Both the position numbers and the translations under genes were made by a program. From IMG/VR virus record IMGVR_UViG_3300028654_000384, positions 151,858-215,857 of that record: DNA of 64,000 bases, one strand, 5' to 3'. The notes beneath the pieces are model-generated. The model was given only the letters and a program-made list of their open reading frames with translations, did not search any database and was not told the DNA's origin. Shown piece by piece: positions 30,224 to 59,370 of this stretch. Within the stretch, counting starts at the first letter, position 1, and each line of letters opens with the position of its first letter. The stretch is from a virus.

Positions 30224-30253
30224 GTGCAAGTTCACCCCTGACCATGGTAGGAT
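30224..30253 (+). promoter_or_regulatory. Leaderless-type promoter
   Basis: GTGCAA-18-TAGGAT-TAGATC-ATG with a TGG extended -10. Confidence 0.9.
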
Positions 30254-30259
30254 TAGATC

Positions 30260-30556
30260 ATGGCAAAGCAGACGGCAAAAGCAACGATCGTCAACGGCAT
30301 CCACGTCCTCCACACCGACGGCGGACGCAAGACCTACGGCATCACCGTCCGGGCGACGGGCACCGAAGCCGACGTCGAGAAAAAAGGCTTCAAGCGCGAG
30401 TGGGACCTCAATGCCCGCTACATTCTCGACACCACGTTCGAGCGTCTTGAGGGACTGTTGGGCCTGTCTCGCCTTGAACACGTTGCCCTCATCGTCGCCG
30501 CTCAATCGAAGATGAACGAAGAGGCGGCCGCCGAGGCACAGCGCTTCACCAAGTAA
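30260..30556 (+). CDS. Hypothetical protein, 98 residues
   Basis: Start fixed by the promoter. A beta-rich first half (ATIVNGIHVLHTDGGRKTYG, GITVRATG) and a helical second half (LEGLLGLSRLEHVALIVAAQ). Function unknown. Confidence 0.75.
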   Translation: MAKQTAKATIVNGIHVLHTDGGRKTYGITVRATGTEADVEKKGFKREWDLNARYILDTTFERLEGLLGLSRLEHVALIVAAQSKMNEEAAAEAQRFTK

Positions 30557-50005: not shown

Positions 50006-50268
50006 AACCCGGCGATCTCATCGAGTGGGTGTACACGTCTGACAACAATGTCGTTGTCACGAATGAAGAGATATGGTCGTCGGTGATGAAGGAGTACGTC
50101 CTCATCGGCGGCGCTCACTTGCTAGTCTCTCATCGCGATGGAATTCTGTCGTGGCTACCCCTGGGTGTACGTCACGCGCGATTGCTCTACGCTAGCGACT
50201 TTCTAGCGACATGCGGGGGCCGCATGTCGCGGCACCTCGGTTGCTTCGCTCACGCGAGGATGATATGA
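50002..50268 (+). CDS. KPGDLIEW-subfamily protein, tandem copy 2
   Basis: 88 residues from a GTG in GTGA overlap: KPGDLIEWVYTSDNNVVV, EEIWSSVMKEYVLIGGAHLL, DGILSWLPL. Its end contains GCTCACGCGAGGATGATATG, the degenerate form of the 28-nt repeat, which also supplies the next start codon. Confidence 0.82.
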   Translation: MKPGDLIEWVYTSDNNVVVTNEEIWSSVMKEYVLIGGAHLLVSHRDGILSWLPLGVRHARLLYASDFLATCGGRMSRHLGCFAHARMI

Positions 50269-50528
50269 AACCCGGCGACCTGATCGAGTGGGTGTACACG
50301 GATGATGGTTCCCCCGCCGTGCCACGTGAGGAGTTGTGGTCATCGATCGAGAAACGTTGGGTGCTGGTCGGAGGCGCCCACCTGCTGATAGCACTAGCCG
50401 ACGGGATATTGACGTGGTTGCCTCTGCACGCATCCCATAAGGGGTTGCTCCACGCGCGCGAGGATGATACGATGAGCAACGACAACGGCCGCGCCTCGGG
50501 GGCGGTTGCTCCACGCGCGCGAGGATGA
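50265..50528 (+). CDS. KPGDLIEW-subfamily protein, tandem copy 3
   Basis: 87 residues, ATGA overlap: KPGDLIEWVYTDDGSPAV, EELWSSIEKRWVLVGGAHLL, DGILTWLPL, KGLLHAREDDT. The reading frame continues through two copies of the 28-nt repeat, so its last 18 residues are probably an accident of repeat duplication. Confidence 0.8.
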   Translation: MKPGDLIEWVYTDDGSPAVPREELWSSIEKRWVLVGGAHLLIALADGILTWLPLHASHKGLLHAREDDTMSNDNGRASGAVAPRARG

Positions 50529-50633: not shown

Positions 50634-50663
50634 GTGTAAGGTACCCTGCAACTGGCATAGGAT
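50634..50663 (+). promoter_or_regulatory. Promoter with a Shine-Dalgarno leader
   Basis: GTGTAA-18-TAGGAT then CTAATTCAAGGAGTCACATCTC-type leader of about 20 bases with AAGGAG. Confidence 0.8.
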
Positions 50664-50685: not shown

Positions 50686-50865
50686 ATGGCGACGATCAAC
50701 ATCAGTGACAAGCAGTTGGACACGTTGAAAGCGGTGCTCAACGCCAGTGATGACCTGTGTAGTTGTGTCATCGCTAGTGACATCGGGTCGATGAAGCGCG
50801 CTCTAACGCTGGCCGGCGCACTGTCCGAACTCAAACGCCAGGGTTTCCTCAAAGACGTGAAGTGA
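50686..50865 (+). CDS. Hypothetical protein, 59 residues
   Basis: ATG with AAGGAG 9 bases upstream. ATINISDKQLDTLKAVLNAS then a helix KRALTLAGALSELKRQGFLK; winged-helix-like, so DNA binding is possible. Short but well supported by promoter and ribosome site. Confidence 0.7.
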   Translation: MATINISDKQLDTLKAVLNASDDLCSCVIASDIGSMKRALTLAGALSELKRQGFLKDVK

Positions 50866-50986
50866 GCCACAAGACCTGTACACCGCCCACTGGGTGGTTA
50901 CATTGGTCTTAATTGGTTGGGCCGTCGGCACAACAGCTTCAATTACCCATCATGGGTCACAGTGTCACAACAAGGACGAGGTCATA

Positions 50987-51370
50987 GTGCAGAAGAGCCA
51001 GAAGAATTCTCGGTTCACAGCATCTAGTGGTGTACGTACGCGGCAGCAAGTCATTTCCCAACCCGAGGTCGTCAGCGCAGACGTCCTTGGTACCATGCTC
51101 GATGAAGATCTCATCGTGCGCCTTCGAGTGCTCGATGAAGCGTGTCGGACGGCGACGTCGTCGGGCATTGACACTCGACCGTGGGAAGAGGAGATTGCCT
51201 ACGTCAAGCGTGAGCAGCACCTCCGGCGCGCGCGCCGTGAACAGCACTTGATCTACGCTCGCAAGATCGAGCAGGAGTTCAACGATTCCGAGCGCGGGTT
51301 GCCTGCGGGTGACTTTGACAACTCGGCATTCGTCTACGCGGCATCGGGCGGTCGTCCGAGGTGGAACTGA
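50987..51370 (+). CDS. Hypothetical protein upstream of the sigma factor
   Basis: 127 residues from a GTG (the frame is open to a GTG at 50894, which adds an unlikely hydrophobic stretch). VISQPEVVSADVLGTMLDED, charged helices (YVKREQHLRRARREQHLIYA) and an aromatic end. Stop overlaps the sigma start (TGATG), so it may be functionally tied to it, for example as a sigma-binding protein; inference only. Confidence 0.6.
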   Translation: MQKSQKNSRFTASSGVRTRQQVISQPEVVSADVLGTMLDEDLIVRLRVLDEACRTATSSGIDTRPWEEEIAYVKREQHLRRARREQHLIYARKIEQEFNDSERGLPAGDFDNSAFVYAASGGRPRWN

Positions 51371-52206
51371 TGACGATCGAAAATCGTACTGCGCACAACG
51401 TCGTCGGCACTTACCTCGACAACCTACAACACTTTTCACAGCTCAAACACCCGGAGCTCGTGGAGCTGTTCAAGTCCTACGAAGTCGGTTGCACCCGCGA
51501 TGAGACGGGTGAGGTCACCGATCGTACTCCCGAGGCCTTCAAGCTGCGCAACAAGATCTTGGAGTGCAACCTGCGACTGGTGGTGTCGATCGCCAAGCAG
51601 TACCGAGGTCACAACCTACCGATCGAAGACCTCATTCAAGAAGGCAACATCGGCCTGATGAAGGCAGTCGATCGGTTCAAGTGGGAGAAGGGCTTTCGCT
51701 TCTCGACCTACGCCACGTGGTGGATCAAGCAGGCCATTGGTCAGCACGTCCTCAAGCGCAAGCGGATGATTCGCTTGCCCGCTCACGCGGCGACGGTGCA
51801 GCGCAAGATGTTGCAGGCGGCCGAAGAGTACCGTGAAAGCAACAATTGCGAGCCCACGACTGAGGAGCTGATGGGCCTGACCGGCGCCAGCGCGACGGTG
51901 ATGAAGGCGACGATTCACTCGGGTCGTGGCACCATTTCGTTGCAGCAACCCCTGTCGTCGAGCGGCGAAGGCGACACTCTCGAGGACAAGGTCGAAGACG
52001 ATCGCCCGGGCTCGAATCCATTCGAGAACGTGGCCGAGAAGCAATTGCTCGAGATCACCAAGATGGTGCTCGGTGAGCTGTCGGCCAAGGAGGCGGCGAT
52101 CCTTCGCCTGCGCTTCGGCCTCGTCGAGGACGCGACTGATGACCAGTCGTATCCCATCACCGAGGAAGAGGCACGCCAAGTCATGGCGGGGAAAGGCCTG
52201 ACATGA
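51370..52206 (+). CDS. Sigma-70-family factor lacking region 4.2
   Basis: 278 residues. A region 1.2-like start (GTYLDNLQHFSQLKHPELVE), then region 2: NLRLVVSIAKQYRG, DLIQEGNIGLMKAVDRF, FSTYATWWIKQAIGQ. Gln of the 2.4 helix (Q437 in E. coli RpoD) is kept; T440 is Gly. Region 3.0 RLPAHAATV keeps the His used for extended -10 contacts. The 3.2 finger (ISLQQPLSSSGEGDTLEDK) and 4.1 (LGELSAKEAAILRLRFGL) are present, but the chain ends at ITEEEARQVMAGKGLT, before the -35-binding helix-turn-helix. It likely directs host RNA polymerase to the promoters described here. Confidence 0.88.
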   Translation: MTIENRTAHNVVGTYLDNLQHFSQLKHPELVELFKSYEVGCTRDETGEVTDRTPEAFKLRNKILECNLRLVVSIAKQYRGHNLPIEDLIQEGNIGLMKAVDRFKWEKGFRFSTYATWWIKQAIGQHVLKRKRMIRLPAHAATVQRKMLQAAEEYRESNNCEPTTEELMGLTGASATVMKATIHSGRGTISLQQPLSSSGEGDTLEDKVEDDRPGSNPFENVAEKQLLEITKMVLGELSAKEAAILRLRFGLVEDATDDQSYPITEEEARQVMAGKGLT

Positions 52207-52346
52207 TCAGGTGGATTGCACTCACTGTCGTCGCCGGCGCCGGCGCTGCTTTCGCGGCAGGTTGCTGGTGTGGTTGGCAGACAACGCTACGGGTCATCGA
52301 TAGTGTCGAGCGACGAACGAGGCGCATGCCAGATGCAAGCGCTTGA
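52203..52346 (+). CDS. 47-residue membrane microprotein
   Basis: ATGA overlap with the sigma gene. MIRWIALTVVAGAGAAFAAG is one membrane helix, then CWCGW and a basic tail. Function unknown. Confidence 0.6.
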   Translation: MIRWIALTVVAGAGAAFAAGCWCGWQTTLRVIDSVERRTRRMPDASA

Positions 52347-52635
52347 CTTCTTCACCGTCTGTGCCGGGGTGAGCCTCATCATCCTGTCCGCGGGCTTCAT
52401 CACTGCACTCATCGTCAAGGCACACAGATCTGCTCGCGTTGATGCACGCGTAGCGGCACCCGTACAACACGAACGTCAACCATTAGAACCCACTGACCCA
52501 CTGGCACGCCGCCTACACGAATTTCAGGAGACGCGCTTTGCCTCTCCCATCGTCAGGCGCCAACTCGAACAGGACGTAGTCCCGATCCGTGATGCATCAA
52601 CGTTGCCGCGACCACCGCGCAGGAGCCCTAAGTGA
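52333..52635 (+). CDS. Single-span membrane protein, 100 residues
   Basis: FFTVCAGVSLIILSAGFITA forms a membrane helix near the N-terminus; a polar, Arg/Pro-rich cytoplasmic tail follows. Overlaps the previous gene by 14 bases and the next by GTGA. Confidence 0.65.
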   Translation: MQALDFFTVCAGVSLIILSAGFITALIVKAHRSARVDARVAAPVQHERQPLEPTDPLARRLHEFQETRFASPIVRRQLEQDVVPIRDASTLPRPPRRSPK

Positions 52636-52862
52636 AGGACGGACCCATCTACGTGTACGATGTTCGGAGCCAGTTCATGGAACCCGTCTTCATCGTCTAC
52701 AATACTGATCACGTCGACGTCTTTGTCAAGGCCTTGGGCCTCGACGACGCCAACCTCCTCGCCTCTAAAGAAAGGCTACATCCGTACGAGGGCAATCGCT
52801 ACAAGAACACGGGTAGCGGCGGATTTTGCCCGCCGCCCAAGGTAAAAGTCAACACTCGCTAG
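52632..52862 (+). CDS. Hypothetical protein, 76 residues
   Basis: GTG start in GTGA overlap. GPIYVYDVRSQFMEPVFIVY then a helix and a Gly/Pro end (GSGGFCPPPKVKV). Function unknown. Confidence 0.65.
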   Translation: MKDGPIYVYDVRSQFMEPVFIVYNTDHVDVFVKALGLDDANLLASKERLHPYEGNRYKNTGSGGFCPPPKVKVNTR

Positions 52863-52875
52863 GAGAATCACGCCG

Positions 52876-53178
52876 ATGGCACTGCACCGAGGTACCAAGG
52901 TCGATCGCGGTTACGCCACTGTCGCCGACGATGAGGGCGATAACTACCGTGAGATCGCCGACATGATGACGGAGATGGGTTTCTCGATGAACCATTCGTC
53001 GGCACGCAACTACGTGCTGCGCGTGATGCGGAAGTTCGCCCGAGCCTTCGTCGAGCAGTGGAACATCGCACACGATGATCAGAAGATCGATGAGATTGCC
53101 AAGAATCCGCAATTTCAACACGGCATCGCCGACCTGCTCCAGATCATCGAATCACAGCGCCGCGGGAATGGCGTATAA
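52876..53178 (+). CDS. Separate sigma region-4-like helix-turn-helix protein
   Basis: 100 residues with AGGAGA upstream. NYREIADMMTEMGFSMNHSS and ARNYVLRVMRKFARAF line up with sigma region 4.2 (T-L-E-E-I-G... R-E-R-I-R-Q-I-E-x-K-A-L-R-K-L-R), the -35-reading helix-turn-helix. A helical C-terminus (IDEIAKNPQFQHGIADLLQI) follows. It is encoded four genes after a sigma factor that lacks exactly this part, so the two may form a two-subunit sigma. Alternatively it is a stand-alone regulator. Confidence 0.65.
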   Translation: MALHRGTKVDRGYATVADDEGDNYREIADMMTEMGFSMNHSSARNYVLRVMRKFARAFVEQWNIAHDDQKIDEIAKNPQFQHGIADLLQIIESQRRGNGV

Positions 53179-53195
53179 TCAATGAGGGACACCAG

Positions 53196-53657
53196 ATGAG
53201 TAGAGATGGCCGTGGCAACCCAGGAAGGTACGAGCTGAAGAATCAGCCGAAGTTGAAGCTCGTTGACCTGTTGCGTCGCCGCAAGATGACGTTGAAACAA
53301 CTGCTCGATGAGTTTGGCATCTCGACCTATGAGGCCTTGCACATCAGGTGCACCAGGATGGGCATCACTGCACCCACGCAGGCCGAATTTGATGTGGTGA
53401 TGCCGCCCGTCAAGGCTTGGGTCAACAGTGCGCAGGAAGGCGTTGTCGTCGTTGAAGCCCCGCGTGTCGTCGATGAGATCACCGGTCGGCAGATCGATCC
53501 CGATGCGCCCGTCGAGGTACCCTCCGTCACCGTGACGTCGGTGCCCTTCGTGCCCCCGACGCCCATGCCGCCCCCACACTGGGGCGGTGCCCTACCGCCC
53601 ATCGCTGACACACAGAAAAAACAGCGCAGGAAAAAGGATGACCAATCCACTGAGTGA
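53196..53657 (+). CDS. Possible helix-turn-helix protein with Pro-rich tail
   Basis: 153 residues. LKLVDLLRRRKMTLKQLLDE and FGISTYEALHIRCTRMGI look like a helix-turn-helix (residues about 22-55). The C-terminus is Pro/Val-rich (PFVPPTPMPPPHWGGALPP) and ends KKQRRKKDD. TATAAT 20 bases upstream may be a -10. Possibly a regulator acting with the region-4 protein. Confidence 0.6.
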   Translation: MSRDGRGNPGRYELKNQPKLKLVDLLRRRKMTLKQLLDEFGISTYEALHIRCTRMGITAPTQAEFDVVMPPVKAWVNSAQEGVVVVEAPRVVDEITGRQIDPDAPVEVPSVTVTSVPFVPPTPMPPPHWGGALPPIADTQKKQRRKKDDQSTE

Positions 53658-54181: not shown

Positions 54182-55390
54182 ATGTCCACGACGTCCATGT
54201 CGATCGCGACCTTCAAGAAAGTCGCCGTCTGCCTGCCCCCGACCCGTTCGATCCTGCTCCGCGCCAATCACGGCGTGGGCAAGAGCAAGGTCATCAGGCA
54301 AGTGTCCACGCTGATCCGCCAGAAACTCCATGCCGACGGGGTCATTGACCTCGCCAAGAATCCGAACGCCTACCCGGTCATCGATCGGCGCGCCGGCCAG
54401 CTCACTGAGGGCGATGTCGTCGGCCTCCCGAGCACCGACGGCAACGTCACCCGCTTCAACCCACCTGACTGGGTCAAGAAAGCGTGCGTCGAGCCCTGCG
54501 TGTTGTTCCTCGATGAGCTTAACCGCGGCACCCAAGAGGTGATGCAGGCGATGTTTCAGATCGTCCTCGATCGGGAACTCAACGGTCACAAGCTGCACCC
54601 GTACACCCGGGTCTACAGCGCCATCAACGCCAGCGCGGCGTACTCTGTCAACGAGATCGACCCGGCGCTGCTCGACCGCTTCTACGTCATCGACCTCGAC
54701 CCCGATGCGACCGAATTCTGTGCCTGGGCGCGTAGCACCGACGCAGAGCAGGGCGGCAACCTCCACTACTTCATCCCCGACTTCATCACCTCGTGCGAAC
54801 AGTGGCTATACCCTGCCAAACAGGCCGAGCCGAGCAGCAAGCAGCCGAGCCCGCGATCGTGGGAAATGGTCAACGAGTCGCTGGTCCACACTGACCTCAT
54901 CGAGGACCCGCAGAACGACATGTTCTACCAGATCAGTCGAGGTTTTGTCGGCAATGAAGCGGCGATCGCCTTTCGCGACTACTGCATGAGCGTCGACAAT
55001 CGCCTGACGGGCGAAGAGATCGTCAACGACCTGGACAAGAAAGCGATCGCAGCTAAGGTGGCGCGCCAGACGCAGGATCGGCAGAACGGCCTCATTGAGA
55101 AGGTCGCTGCCTATGTCACCGACAACTGTGCGACGCTGACTGACAAGCAAGGCAAGAACGTCCACACCTTCATGAAGTCGCTGCCCGATGAGCTCAAGAT
55201 CTCGTTGTGGAGCAAGCTGACGAGCCACGGCATCGACAAGATCGAGCTGGCCAAGAGCATCCACAAGCACTGTGCAGAGACGGTGTTGTCGGTGTTCGGC
55301 GTGCCCATGGGTGAAGCCGGGATTGGCGTCACGCCTAACATACCCGGAGTCTTCAAGGAAAAGGCGAAGGACACCAAGGACACCAAGTAA
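54182..55390 (+). CDS. MoxR-type AAA+ ATPase
   Basis: 402 residues. Walker A RANHGVGKSKVIRQV (about residues 33-47), GQLTEGDVVGLPS in the pre-Walker-B position typical of MoxR/CbbQ, Walker B CVLFLDELNRGTQEVM, sensor 1 YSAINAS and the arginine-finger region LLDRFYVIDL. The C-terminus is helical. MoxR ATPases act as chaperones for metal centres or complexes, usually with a VWA-domain partner; none is seen here. Strong ribosome site. Confidence 0.85.
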   Translation: MSTTSMSIATFKKVAVCLPPTRSILLRANHGVGKSKVIRQVSTLIRQKLHADGVIDLAKNPNAYPVIDRRAGQLTEGDVVGLPSTDGNVTRFNPPDWVKKACVEPCVLFLDELNRGTQEVMQAMFQIVLDRELNGHKLHPYTRVYSAINASAAYSVNEIDPALLDRFYVIDLDPDATEFCAWARSTDAEQGGNLHYFIPDFITSCEQWLYPAKQAEPSSKQPSPRSWEMVNESLVHTDLIEDPQNDMFYQISRGFVGNEAAIAFRDYCMSVDNRLTGEEIVNDLDKKAIAAKVARQTQDRQNGLIEKVAAYVTDNCATLTDKQGKNVHTFMKSLPDELKISLWSKLTSHGIDKIELAKSIHKHCAETVLSVFGVPMGEAGIGVTPNIPGVFKEKAKDTKDTK

Positions 55391-55950: not shown

Positions 55951-55973
55951 CAATTACACCCGGGGTATAATTT
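55951..55973. repeat. Dispersed 23-bp palindrome, copy 6
   Basis: CAATTACACC then CGGGGTATAATTT; centre 85 bp from the ATG at 56047. The preceding 130 bp hold no gene. Confidence 0.75.
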
Positions 55974-55977
55974 GCCG

Positions 55978-56052
55978 TCAGTGTAACACGGCACGATGTG
56001 CCTACACACAGTGTAAGTTCCCGGACAATCGTGGTAGGATTAGATCATGTTG
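55978..56052. repeat. Duplicated promoter block, copy 1
   Basis: About 75 bp from CAGTGTAACACGG to the first codons (ATGTTGAAGC) are nearly identical to 57522-57598, differing by a single base insertion. Confidence 0.8.
56011..56040 (+). promoter_or_regulatory. Leaderless-type promoter
   Basis: GTGTAA-18-TAGGAT-TAGATC-ATG. A second GTGTAA lies 30 bp upstream without a -10. Confidence 0.9.
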
Positions 56053-56742
56053 AAGCAGAACGTTCAAGACACCTACGTAGCCGATCGTGCCGCTATCGCG
56101 CAGCGCATCCTCACCAGCCCGCTTGCTGCCTACGTGGGTTACTCGGGCGACCTCTATCGCCTCGACAAGCTGCATAACATCGCCCGCGACGGAAAGGCAC
56201 ACACCGGTTACTCATTCCTGTCGGTCGAGTTCAAGAAGGCAGGCACTGAGTGTTCGCTCGAAATTCGTGAAGAGGGATCCGGGTACTCTGGTGGTGTGAC
56301 CACCGACGCCGAAGGCAATGAGTATCACGAGTATACGCTGTCCTGTGCCGTCAACTTTCCCTGCCACGGCAGCACCGCCTGCGGTGCGGTGTTGGCCCGC
56401 CTCGCCTTCTATCAGCAGGTCGCATTGTTGGCCGCCGAGATCGAGGCCGAGTTTGTCGTCAATCGACGTGTCAACTACAAGATGACGCGGACCGCAGCCG
56501 AGGTCGTCGCCGACAACGCGAAGGTGGAAGCCCAGCGCATCGAGCAAGCGTATGCCGGTGTGACACTAAAGTATGGCGCTACCGGACTCCGCGTCGGCAA
56601 AGTGGTCGGTCTCGACCCCGAAGACCTCGGCAACTTGCCAGAAGGCAAGCGCGACGTCGAGACCAGCCGAGGCAAGAAGTTCTCGATCTCGATCAATGCC
56701 GATAATGGCATCAAGGTTGGCCTCATCACCCGCACCGCCTAG
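56047..56742 (+). CDS. Hypothetical protein, 231 residues
   Basis: RILTSPLAAYVGYSGDLYRL, a beta region (SFLSVEFKKAGTECSLEIRE), helices (YQQVALLAAEIEAEFVVNRR) and a final KKFSISINADNGIKVGLI. No motif recognised. Shares its first codons and promoter with 57591-57812. Confidence 0.7.
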   Translation: MLKQNVQDTYVADRAAIAQRILTSPLAAYVGYSGDLYRLDKLHNIARDGKAHTGYSFLSVEFKKAGTECSLEIREEGSGYSGGVTTDAEGNEYHEYTLSCAVNFPCHGSTACGAVLARLAFYQQVALLAAEIEAEFVVNRRVNYKMTRTAAEVVADNAKVEAQRIEQAYAGVTLKYGATGLRVGKVVGLDPEDLGNLPEGKRDVETSRGKKFSISINADNGIKVGLITRTA

Positions 56743-57494: not shown

Positions 57495-57517
57495 GAATTA
57501 CATCTCGGGTATAATTT
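57495..57517. repeat. Dispersed 23-bp palindrome, copy 7
   Basis: GAATTACATC then TCGGGTATAATTT; centre 85 bp from the ATG at 57591. Confidence 0.75.
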
Positions 57518-57521
57518 TGAG

Positions 57522-57598
57522 CAGTGTAACACGGCACGATGTGCCTTACACACAGTGTAAGTTCCCGGACAATCGTGGTAGGATTAGATCATGTTGAA
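57522..57598. repeat. Duplicated promoter block, copy 2
   Basis: Near-identical to 55978-56052, including ACACGGCACGATGTGCC and the full promoter and start. Confidence 0.8.
57555..57584 (+). promoter_or_regulatory. Leaderless-type promoter
   Basis: GTGTAA-18-TAGGAT-TAGATC-ATG. Confidence 0.9.
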
Positions 57599-57812
57599 GC
57601 TGAAGCCATTGTTTCTCGAGCAGATCTCACCGCTGGCACATCGCCAAGACGTGAGCATGACCGCAGTTATGAACTTCTTGATGACGGTGCAGTACAACGA
57701 GACCATCGACGCCGCGCTCGAGAACCTCAGGAGCGATGCCGCTTCGTACGGGTGGAACGCCGCGACGATCAAGGCGATCCGCGCCGGCATCCACCTCGCT
57801 GCGAAGGTCTAA
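57591..57812 (+). CDS. Hypothetical helical protein, 73 residues
   Basis: LFLEQISPLAHRQDVSMTAV and IDAALENLRSDAASYGWNAA. Beyond the first codons it does not resemble 56047-56742. Function unknown. Confidence 0.7.
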   Translation: MLKLKPLFLEQISPLAHRQDVSMTAVMNFLMTVQYNETIDAALENLRSDAASYGWNAATIKAIRAGIHLAAKV

Positions 57813-59156: not shown

Positions 59157-59370
59157 CCTAAAACCCGGCGACCTGATCGAGTGGGTGTATGAACCCGAGA
59201 ATGTGCTCGTGGCCGCCAATGAACAGCTGTGGTCATCGGTGATGAAGGCTTGGGTGTTCATTGGCGGTGCTCACTTGCTCATTGCCCGTGCCGAAGGCAC
59301 CCTGACGTGGTTGCCCCTCAGTGCACTTGACAAGAGGTTGCTCCACGCGCGCGAGGATGATACAGTGTAA
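59140..59370 (+). CDS. KPGDLIEW-subfamily protein
   Basis: 76 residues from a GTG inside the preceding gene (no start lies closer to the LKPGDLIEWVY motif). EQLWSSVMKAWVFIGGAHLL, EGTLTWLPL and KRLLHAREDDT, the last encoded by the 28-nt repeat. Its TAA is part of the next -35. Confidence 0.78.
   Translation: MSTQRDLKPGDLIEWVYEPENVLVAANEQLWSSVMKAWVFIGGAHLLIARAEGTLTWLPLSALDKRLLHAREDDTV

Follow-up and report, generated by a model that had tools for sequence, protein, structure and literature searches.

A phage sigma factor that stops inside region 4, and a separately encoded region 4.2 protein in its uncultured giant relatives

The subject of this report is a sigma factor gene in a stretch of 64,000 nucleotides (the window), which comprises bases 151,858-215,857 of the 215,857-base virus record IMGVR_UViG_3300028654_000384. 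The encoded protein stops inside region 4, before the helix-turn-helix (HTH) of region 4.2, and relatives of this phage carry a distant gene for a small protein that resembles the missing part. We consider it probable that the sigma is cut inside region 4, that region 4.2 is supplied in trans by the separate protein and that the two jointly read promoters with GTGNAA at -35.

The truncated sigma gene and its small neighbour

The following features of the locus carry the argument:

51370-52206, + strand: truncated primary-type sigma factor of 278 residues, with regions 2 and 3 and the first region 4 helix, without HTH 4.2
51559-51765, + strand: sigma region 2 (residues 64-132), with Gly at the T440-equivalent (PF04542, 8.1e-23)
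52066-52137, + strand: leftover part of region 4 (residues 233-256; PF04545 positions 1-22)
52876-53178, + strand: HTH-like helical protein of 100 residues, obligate neighbour of the sigma gene (linked in 266/266 loci; AlphaFold2 model, predicted local distance difference test (pLDDT) 81.8)

The best PDB matches of the sigma are RpoD, SigB, HrdB and SigA chains (top match RpoD, 3.5e-41), the alignment spanning residues 55-272 and the best match reaching residue 272, and on its regions 2 and 3 the protein is classed in the Sigma70 family as a primary-type member. An alternative GTG start at 51361 is possible, and the C-terminal end reads ...ITEEEARQVMAGKGLT. In Pfam, the region 3 match is weak (PF04539, 0.0021, under the family cut-off) and region 4 is represented by positions 1-22 of the 50-position PF04545 model (0.12), while the match to PHROG 351 extends over positions 504-692. 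A sequence-only reading of the window had called regions 2 and 3 well conserved. It had also noted Gly at T440 of the -10 helix, and the helix WWIKQAIGQ indeed has Gly at the place that we take to be T440 of sigma70 (numbering T440-R441). At these two places distinct relatives have Ser-Gln (45), Gly-Gln (37), Arg-Arg (13), Thr-Arg (11) or other residues, so that Gly at the T440 place is common in the family.

Relatives were collected by scanning IMG/VR with the window sigma (125 relatives, best 80 used), with the small protein encoded by 52876-53178 or alignments of it (39, 191 and 234 matches, of which the best 39, 80 and 80 were used) and with the detached 4.2 protein described below (201 relatives, best 80 used); two of the scans for the small family searched with words taken from its MNHS(S/T)ARN stretch. 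The loci overlap, and the 266 non-bacterial loci with a small-family open reading frame (ORF) reduce to 147 distinct sigma/small-gene pairs after removal of duplicates. Records are named in the style G000-G055 and loci in the style L188, L193, L285 and L286. A sigma is present in all 266 loci, and a region 4.2 HTH in the same chain is lacking from the window sigma and in 266 of 266 loci. The 267 sigma ORFs end 6-37 residues past the RFG motif, past which the bacterial sigmas inspected run for about 48 residues or more (two odd rows set aside), and PF04545 coverage of the split sigmas ends at position 18-31. The claim that the 278-residue protein stops before the -35-binding HTH is therefore upheld by the same stop in 266 of 266 loci. 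In a tree of regions 2-3, built from 36 split, 44 bacterial and 3 other phage sigmas, 36 of the 36 split sigmas fall on one side of a branch with support 100/99; their placement among the other sigmas is unsure, because long branches meet there, as the tree program warned. Since the stop is the same in all 266 loci (147 distinct pairs), it reflects neither error nor decay, and a pseudogene or an assembly error at 51370-52206 is ruled out. The carriers of the split sigma are a widespread group of uncultured giant phages. In contigs of cellular genomes, relatives of the sigma reach at most 41% identity, and none of the best 80 of 587 matches there offered a host link for the phage.

The sequence-only reading took the small neighbour gene, 52876-53178, for the missing region 4.2. 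Its association with the sigma is certainly close: the two genes lie on the same strand in 147 of 147 distinct pairs, and 53-788 nucleotides separate the sigma stop from the YREIA start of the small protein where the motif can be read, a count that leaves out 28 pairs without the motif and three negative values, which we read as reverse-strand loci. The family consensus is GYATV...YREIA.MT..G..MNHS(S/T)ARN, with MNHS(S/T)ARN nearly invariant (some scans used words from it). However, Pfam gave nothing for the window protein at E<=1, its PDB matches at E<=10 included no sigma, and the Pfam matches of 60 family members were scattered, with no sigma region among the 25 listed of 31. When the family profile (141 sequences) was compared with RpoD region 4 (63 distinct rows, two odd rows set aside), the hhalign probability was 0.5%, as against 1.5% for reversed controls; against the whole RpoD stretch it was 5.2%, the alignment falling on region 2 and not on region 4. 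Weak contacts with sigma families were seen in two places, namely a sigma PHROG touched by 3 of the 60 members (best 0.0073) and a 69-residue chain of the extracytoplasmic function sigma SigR touched by the family profile (E 0.22, 23 positions) in a PDB profile search that was otherwise without result.

The AlphaFold model of the small protein (pLDDT 81.8) has a low-confidence start and helices at 24-33, 40-61, 68-76 and 78-97. Its top PDB match in Foldseek, the DNA-binding domain of yeast Sap1, is non-significant (E 0.64, probability 0.60), and the best match among viral models is an uncharacterized phage protein of 72 residues (E 0.026, probability 1.00). No sigma was listed by VIA-align, which excludes nothing. 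Among 50,697 phage records, the window protein had no match better than E=10 and a distant family member none at E<=1. With the profile comparison at null level and the Sap1 fold match non-significant, we label 52876-53178 only as HTH-like, not detectably region 4; given the Pfam and PDB results and the null-level profile comparison, we do not accept its identification as region 4.2 as shown. Profile searches of both proteins, which the sequence-only reading had put forward as a check, find region 2, weakly region 3, and the start of 4 in the sigma and no region 4 in the small protein. Absence of region 4 similarity was one of the results that, according to that reading, would refute it; such similarity went undetected, and the partner that it named is probably wrong.

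A detached region 4.2 protein in the relatives

Nine sigma-bearing records were searched with PF04545, and five hold a second match above the cut-off in a small distant ORF, where the match starts at position 12-20 of the model and ends at 49-50. The encoded protein, of about 95 residues, has four conserved N-terminal cysteines, presumably a zinc-binding module, followed by the HTH TLQ.IG.IY.LTRMRICQIEK. PF04545 (Sigma70_r4) is matched by 20 of 20 members of this family, with coverage that starts at 6-21 and ends at 46-50, and hhalign aligns the family with RpoD region 4 at 97.8% (E 1.2e-12; reversed control 2.4%), so that by sequence profile the detached protein of the relatives is a true region 4.2. 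Three detached proteins match PHROG 351 at 685-726 (L188 at 692-724); because the window sigma covers 504-692 of the same family, the detached protein begins where the sigma ends. In a Foldseek search of the PDB with its model (pLDDT 74.6, predicted template modelling score 0.45), 19 of 20 matches were sigma chains or sigma-region-4 constructs, none of them at E<=0.001 (best E 0.31). The recognition helix carries Met and Cys where sigma70 has the residues that we take to be E585 and R588, which would fit a -35 element other than TTGACA. Among isolate-phage records the protein matched only the HTH of sigmas, together with a non-significant Dhakavirus stretch (E 0.7), and one search of these records gave no match at 0.01. 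PHROG 1190 was found in none of the nine records.

In G001 a second sigma is also above the PF04545 cut-off. It is the only one of the 267 sigmas without a small gene (L193, G001:131500-134500, - strand), and its region 4 seemingly lacks the scaffold helix and keeps a recognition-like helix.

Records selected for their sigma or small gene were searched for the 4.2 gene, and it is present in 12 of 41 distinct ones, including 8 of the 8 sigma-bearing records of at least 240 kb; the remaining four sigma-bearing records of that size (G020, G024, G025 and G026) carry it too, according to the 4.2 scan. When 20 records were chosen by the 4.2 gene instead, these being the larger records among the best 80 loci, 7 held both sigma and small gene, and these were 7 of the 8 records of at least 187 kb and 0 of the 12 smaller ones. 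Both halves of PF04545 are present in six records of at least 254 kb, in separate ORFs. In the 19 records with both genes, the distance from the sigma downstream to the 4.2 gene, computed by hand, is 39-107 kb in ten and, if counted across record ends, 53-123 kb in the other nine; in 17 of these records the two genes lie on opposite strands. The proposal that sigma regions 1.2-4.1 and region 4.2 occupy separate genes is thus sustained across the clade, with a partner other than 52876-53178.

The GTGNAA promoter class and the rest of the operon

Promoters were analysed in four sets picked by us: the window, set A (10 near-relative loci), set B (19 loci of about 50-57% sigma identity) and set C (25 loci from a distant scan). 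Within the window, GTGNAA stands at exactly 18 bp from TANNNT 39 times on both strands together, where 0.9 would be expected, and it ranks first among 180 hexamer permutations in all four sets (window 39, A 54, B 44 and C 32 sites), which bears out the unusual GTGNAA -35 element of the sequence-only reading. A five-of-six hexamer search with spacers of 16-19 bp placed GTGNAA or an overlapping word at the top in the window, A and B; in the distant set C the top word was TGTANA at 16 bp, and GTGNAA came seventh, at 17 bp. Counts over whole records at 18 bp, set against a reversed-pattern control, were 50 vs 4 in G000, 67 vs 6 in G002 and 28 vs 8 in G003, weaker in G005 (15 vs 8) and without excess in G053 (9 vs 11) and G055 (13 vs 13); a local scan of the distant group finds a spacer of 17 bp. 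Many of the sites carry TG before the -10. Intergenic sites of the window with spacers of 15-19 bp number 22 on the + strand and 3 on the - strand, by a crude choice of ORFs. The T4-type late box TATAAATA occurs in 0 to 21 copies per set, counted without a control.

An ORF starts exactly 6 nucleotides past the -10 at 24 of the 39 window sites, as against 31 of 724 for all TANNNT, and at 23/54, 16/44 and 1/32 sites in sets A, B and C. Given the usual distance from -10 to +1, such a start codon would be the first transcribed base, and the genes are hence predicted to be leaderless; TTAGATCATG genes make up this predicted class, with ATG at the expected +1. The sites concerned are:

3738-60403, + strand: GTGNAA...TTAGATC sites, 16 on the + strand and another 3 on the - strand; ATG follows immediately, at the expected +1, in 17/19
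30224-30262, + strand: GTGCAA-18 bp-TAGGAT-TAGATC-ATG, the example given by the sequence-only reading; predicted leaderless, ATG 30260
50634-50663, + strand: promoter-like site, GTGTAA-18 bp-TAGGAT, ahead of the ORF series 50686-53657, which includes the sigma gene

Through the site at 50634-50663 the sigma may possibly regulate itself. Of 135 distinct sigmas, 96 have a GTGNAA site (spacer 16-19 bp) upstream at a distance of no more than 1.5 kb, compared with 14 of 135 on the other strand, and the sites cluster near the sigma gene (42 of 50 at 149-212 kb in G000; all but 11 of those listed at 9-88 kb in G002). Two duplicated stretches of the window, 55952-56060 and 57496-57604, hold a promoter copy and are 92% alike; a repeat of about 200 bases (50268-50470 and 59161-59363) is 74% alike.

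The remaining parts of the operon are:

53196-53657, + strand: third gene, with a conserved head of about 60 residues and a variable tail, beside the small gene in 243/266 loci
52203-52862, + strand: three small ORFs that separate the sigma from the small gene in the window and do not belong to the conserved unit

The third gene is missing from 21 of the 266 loci and cut by the locus end in 2. Its head has the consensus RRRK..L..FL...GI.TYE.L...C...GV.PP, and the gene has no convincing family match and no PDB relative, a profile search with its family included; a possible resemblance to T4 gp33 is unsupported by that search. The sigma has two conserved operon partners, 52876-53178 and 53196-53657. 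In two distant relatives, L285 and L286, sigma and small gene are directly adjacent. Both loci have a GroEL-like gene upstream of the operon and L286 a peptide-deformylase-like gene downstream, as named by reading the sequence. Downstream of the operon the window encodes an AAA ATPase (54182-55390; PHROG 1297, 1.1e-47, with a weak bpMoxR touch).

Interpretation and comparison with known systems

In the arrangement that we consider probable, the large piece (51370-52206), which keeps the core-binding and -10-reading regions 2 and 3 together with the first region 4 helix, would sit on the host RNA polymerase and read the -10. That the polymerase would be that of the host is suggested by the absence of a phage beta subunit from 8 of 8 records searched with one Pfam domain (PF00562). 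The -35-reading HTH 4.2 would be supplied in trans by the four-cysteine protein of about 95 residues, encoded tens of kb away in the relatives, and both pieces together would read a promoter class of their own, GTGNAA - 17 or 18 bp - TANNNT, in which TG frequently precedes the -10. The products of 52876-53178 and 53196-53657 may act as accessory subunits, docking the detached head, forming a bridge to the beta flap or serving as a second head. We also entertain, tentatively, a scheme of exchangeable -35 heads in which the truncated sigma might dock either the cysteine-type 4.2 protein or 52876-53178, each with its own promoter class, the GTGNAA class leading to leaderless genes; if so, the phage would change its gene programme by swapping the -35 reader while keeping the whole sigma.

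The assembly of the pieces and the identity of the GTGNAA reader are matters that we infer, and a number of observations weigh against assembly of the sigma with the detached 4.2 protein. The 4.2 gene lies tens of kb from the sigma operon, and a GTGNAA site stands upstream of it in only 1 of 70 cases. Among searched sigma-bearing records below 240 kb only 4 of 33 carry the gene; G051 (236 kb) has the sigma without the 4.2 gene and G021 (204 kb) the 4.2 gene without the sigma. The invariance of TRMRICQ in the detached protein is inflated because the IMG/VR scan used it as a search word; profile searching found seven such proteins, and of the four inspected three have TRMRICQ and one SRMRICQ. 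Finally, the detached gene is absent from the approximately 298 kb known of the window's own phage, whose first record ends 12.6 kb past the sigma and whose second record (99.993% identical over 14.9 kb) reaches about 94 kb downstream of it, again without the gene. In near relatives it lies 103 (G001), 98 (G002, across record ends), 94 (G020), 81 (G003) and 74 kb (G004) downstream, and it is plausible that it was missed because the sequence ends too early. With about 94 kb known, as against 74-103 kb in these relatives, the 4.2 gene is predicted, not seen, for the window's phage.

An alternative that we regard as rather doubtful is that the host holoenzyme reads GTGNAA with the help of a phage activator at -35, in the way of MotA/AsiA of T4, the split sigma serving another promoter class. 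Such a system would accord with the clustering of sites around the sigma, with the lack of enrichment around the 4.2 gene in local scans and with the TG before many of the -10 elements, extended -10 promoters being readable with little help from the -35; it is harder to reconcile with the persistence of the motif in phage groups that have the split sigma in common, and with the GTGNAA site that precedes the sigma operon itself in 96 of 135 cases.

We hold it unlikely that 52876-53178 is itself the missing -35 reader, a region 4.2 diverged past recognition, since its comparison with RpoD region 4 stays at or below reversed controls, its best PDB fold is the Sap1 DNA-binding domain (E 0.64, probability 0.60) and the relatives already own a true 4.2 protein. 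The idea draws on the strict linkage (266/266 loci, 147/147 pairs on the same strand), the modelled helix, turn and long helix (24-33, 40-61), the nearly invariant MNHS(S/T)ARN, the weak touches of the sigma PHROG and the SigR chain, and the presence of this gene in the window's phage, for which the searches gave no cysteine-type 4.2 protein.

We strongly doubt that the large piece acts alone, or with 52876-53178 in the manner of T4 gp55/gp33, with no -35 reader at all, the cysteine-type 4.2 protein being an independent regulator such as a host-sigma competitor for the beta flap. The distance of the 4.2 gene from the sigma operon is in keeping with this, as is the description, in a passage of PMC7892883, of a sigma2 homology domain in gp55 and of binding of gp33 to the flap tip and the upstream DNA backbone. 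The same passage gives no conserved -35 for the T4 late promoters, which gp55 reads with gp33, whereas a strong element stands at -35 here, and the sigma and the detached protein are complementary in profile. A decayed or mis-assembled ordinary sigma gene, which the early stop might suggest in a single genome, is practically out of the question, being already refuted by the identical stop in 266 loci (147 distinct pairs) and the one tree group with support 100/99.

A sigma normally has its region 4 as one compact unit, through which the polymerase flap is linked to -35 DNA, and a sigma split within this unit was not found in the open-access literature searched. If the pairing of truncated sigma and detached 4.2 protein is correct, the clade would be a natural test of the parts of sigma 4, flap binding as against DNA reading, and of whether exchanging the small subunit changes promoter choice. 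With a promoter class predicted in which the start codon sits at +1, direct tests of the regulon of these uncultured phages, and of their leaderless translation, become possible.

The division of sigma functions over two genes resembles SigO/RsoA of Bacillus subtilis, which the sequence-only reading had cited as a known two-part sigma. The likeness extends to the two genes and not to the cut, which in SigO/RsoA sets sigma4 (SigO) apart from sigma2 (RsoA), according to a passage of PMC8103513; a table in PMC10141391 lists sigma2, sigma3 and sigma4 for the pair. In the phages the cut lies within region 4 and not between sigma2 and sigma4, the large piece is of primary type with regions 2 and 3, and the 4.2 piece has a cysteine module and is encoded tens of kb away.

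With gp55/gp33 of T4 the phages share a sigma without the region 4 HTH that would act on the polymerase of the host together with a small protein from another gene; SPO1 gp33/gp34 form a similar late system. They differ in the strong GTGNAA at -35, provided that the split sigma reads this class, and in a detached protein that is recognisable as region 4.2. Sequence searches gave no gp33 match for the families of 52876-53178 and 53196-53657, both of them small and diverged.

The group 2 jumbo phages offer a further parallel, a stand-alone sigma HTH in jumbo phages that use the host polymerase. The relevant part of PMC7824862 describes in them a 'minimal sigma' with a single HTH, an RpoD-like sigma and a gp33 ortholog, and takes the minimal sigma for a possible ancient remnant, the RpoD-like one for a more complete type; a pairing of truncated sigma and detached head is not proposed in that part, and the minimal sigma is compared here by description only. 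The RpoD-like sigmas of Microcystis phage MaAM05, Vibrio phage 2.275.O, Synechococcus phage MA01 and Prevotella phage Lak-B5 are of the same family as the split sigma, with regions 2 and 3, and run on beyond its stop point with an HTH-like stretch.

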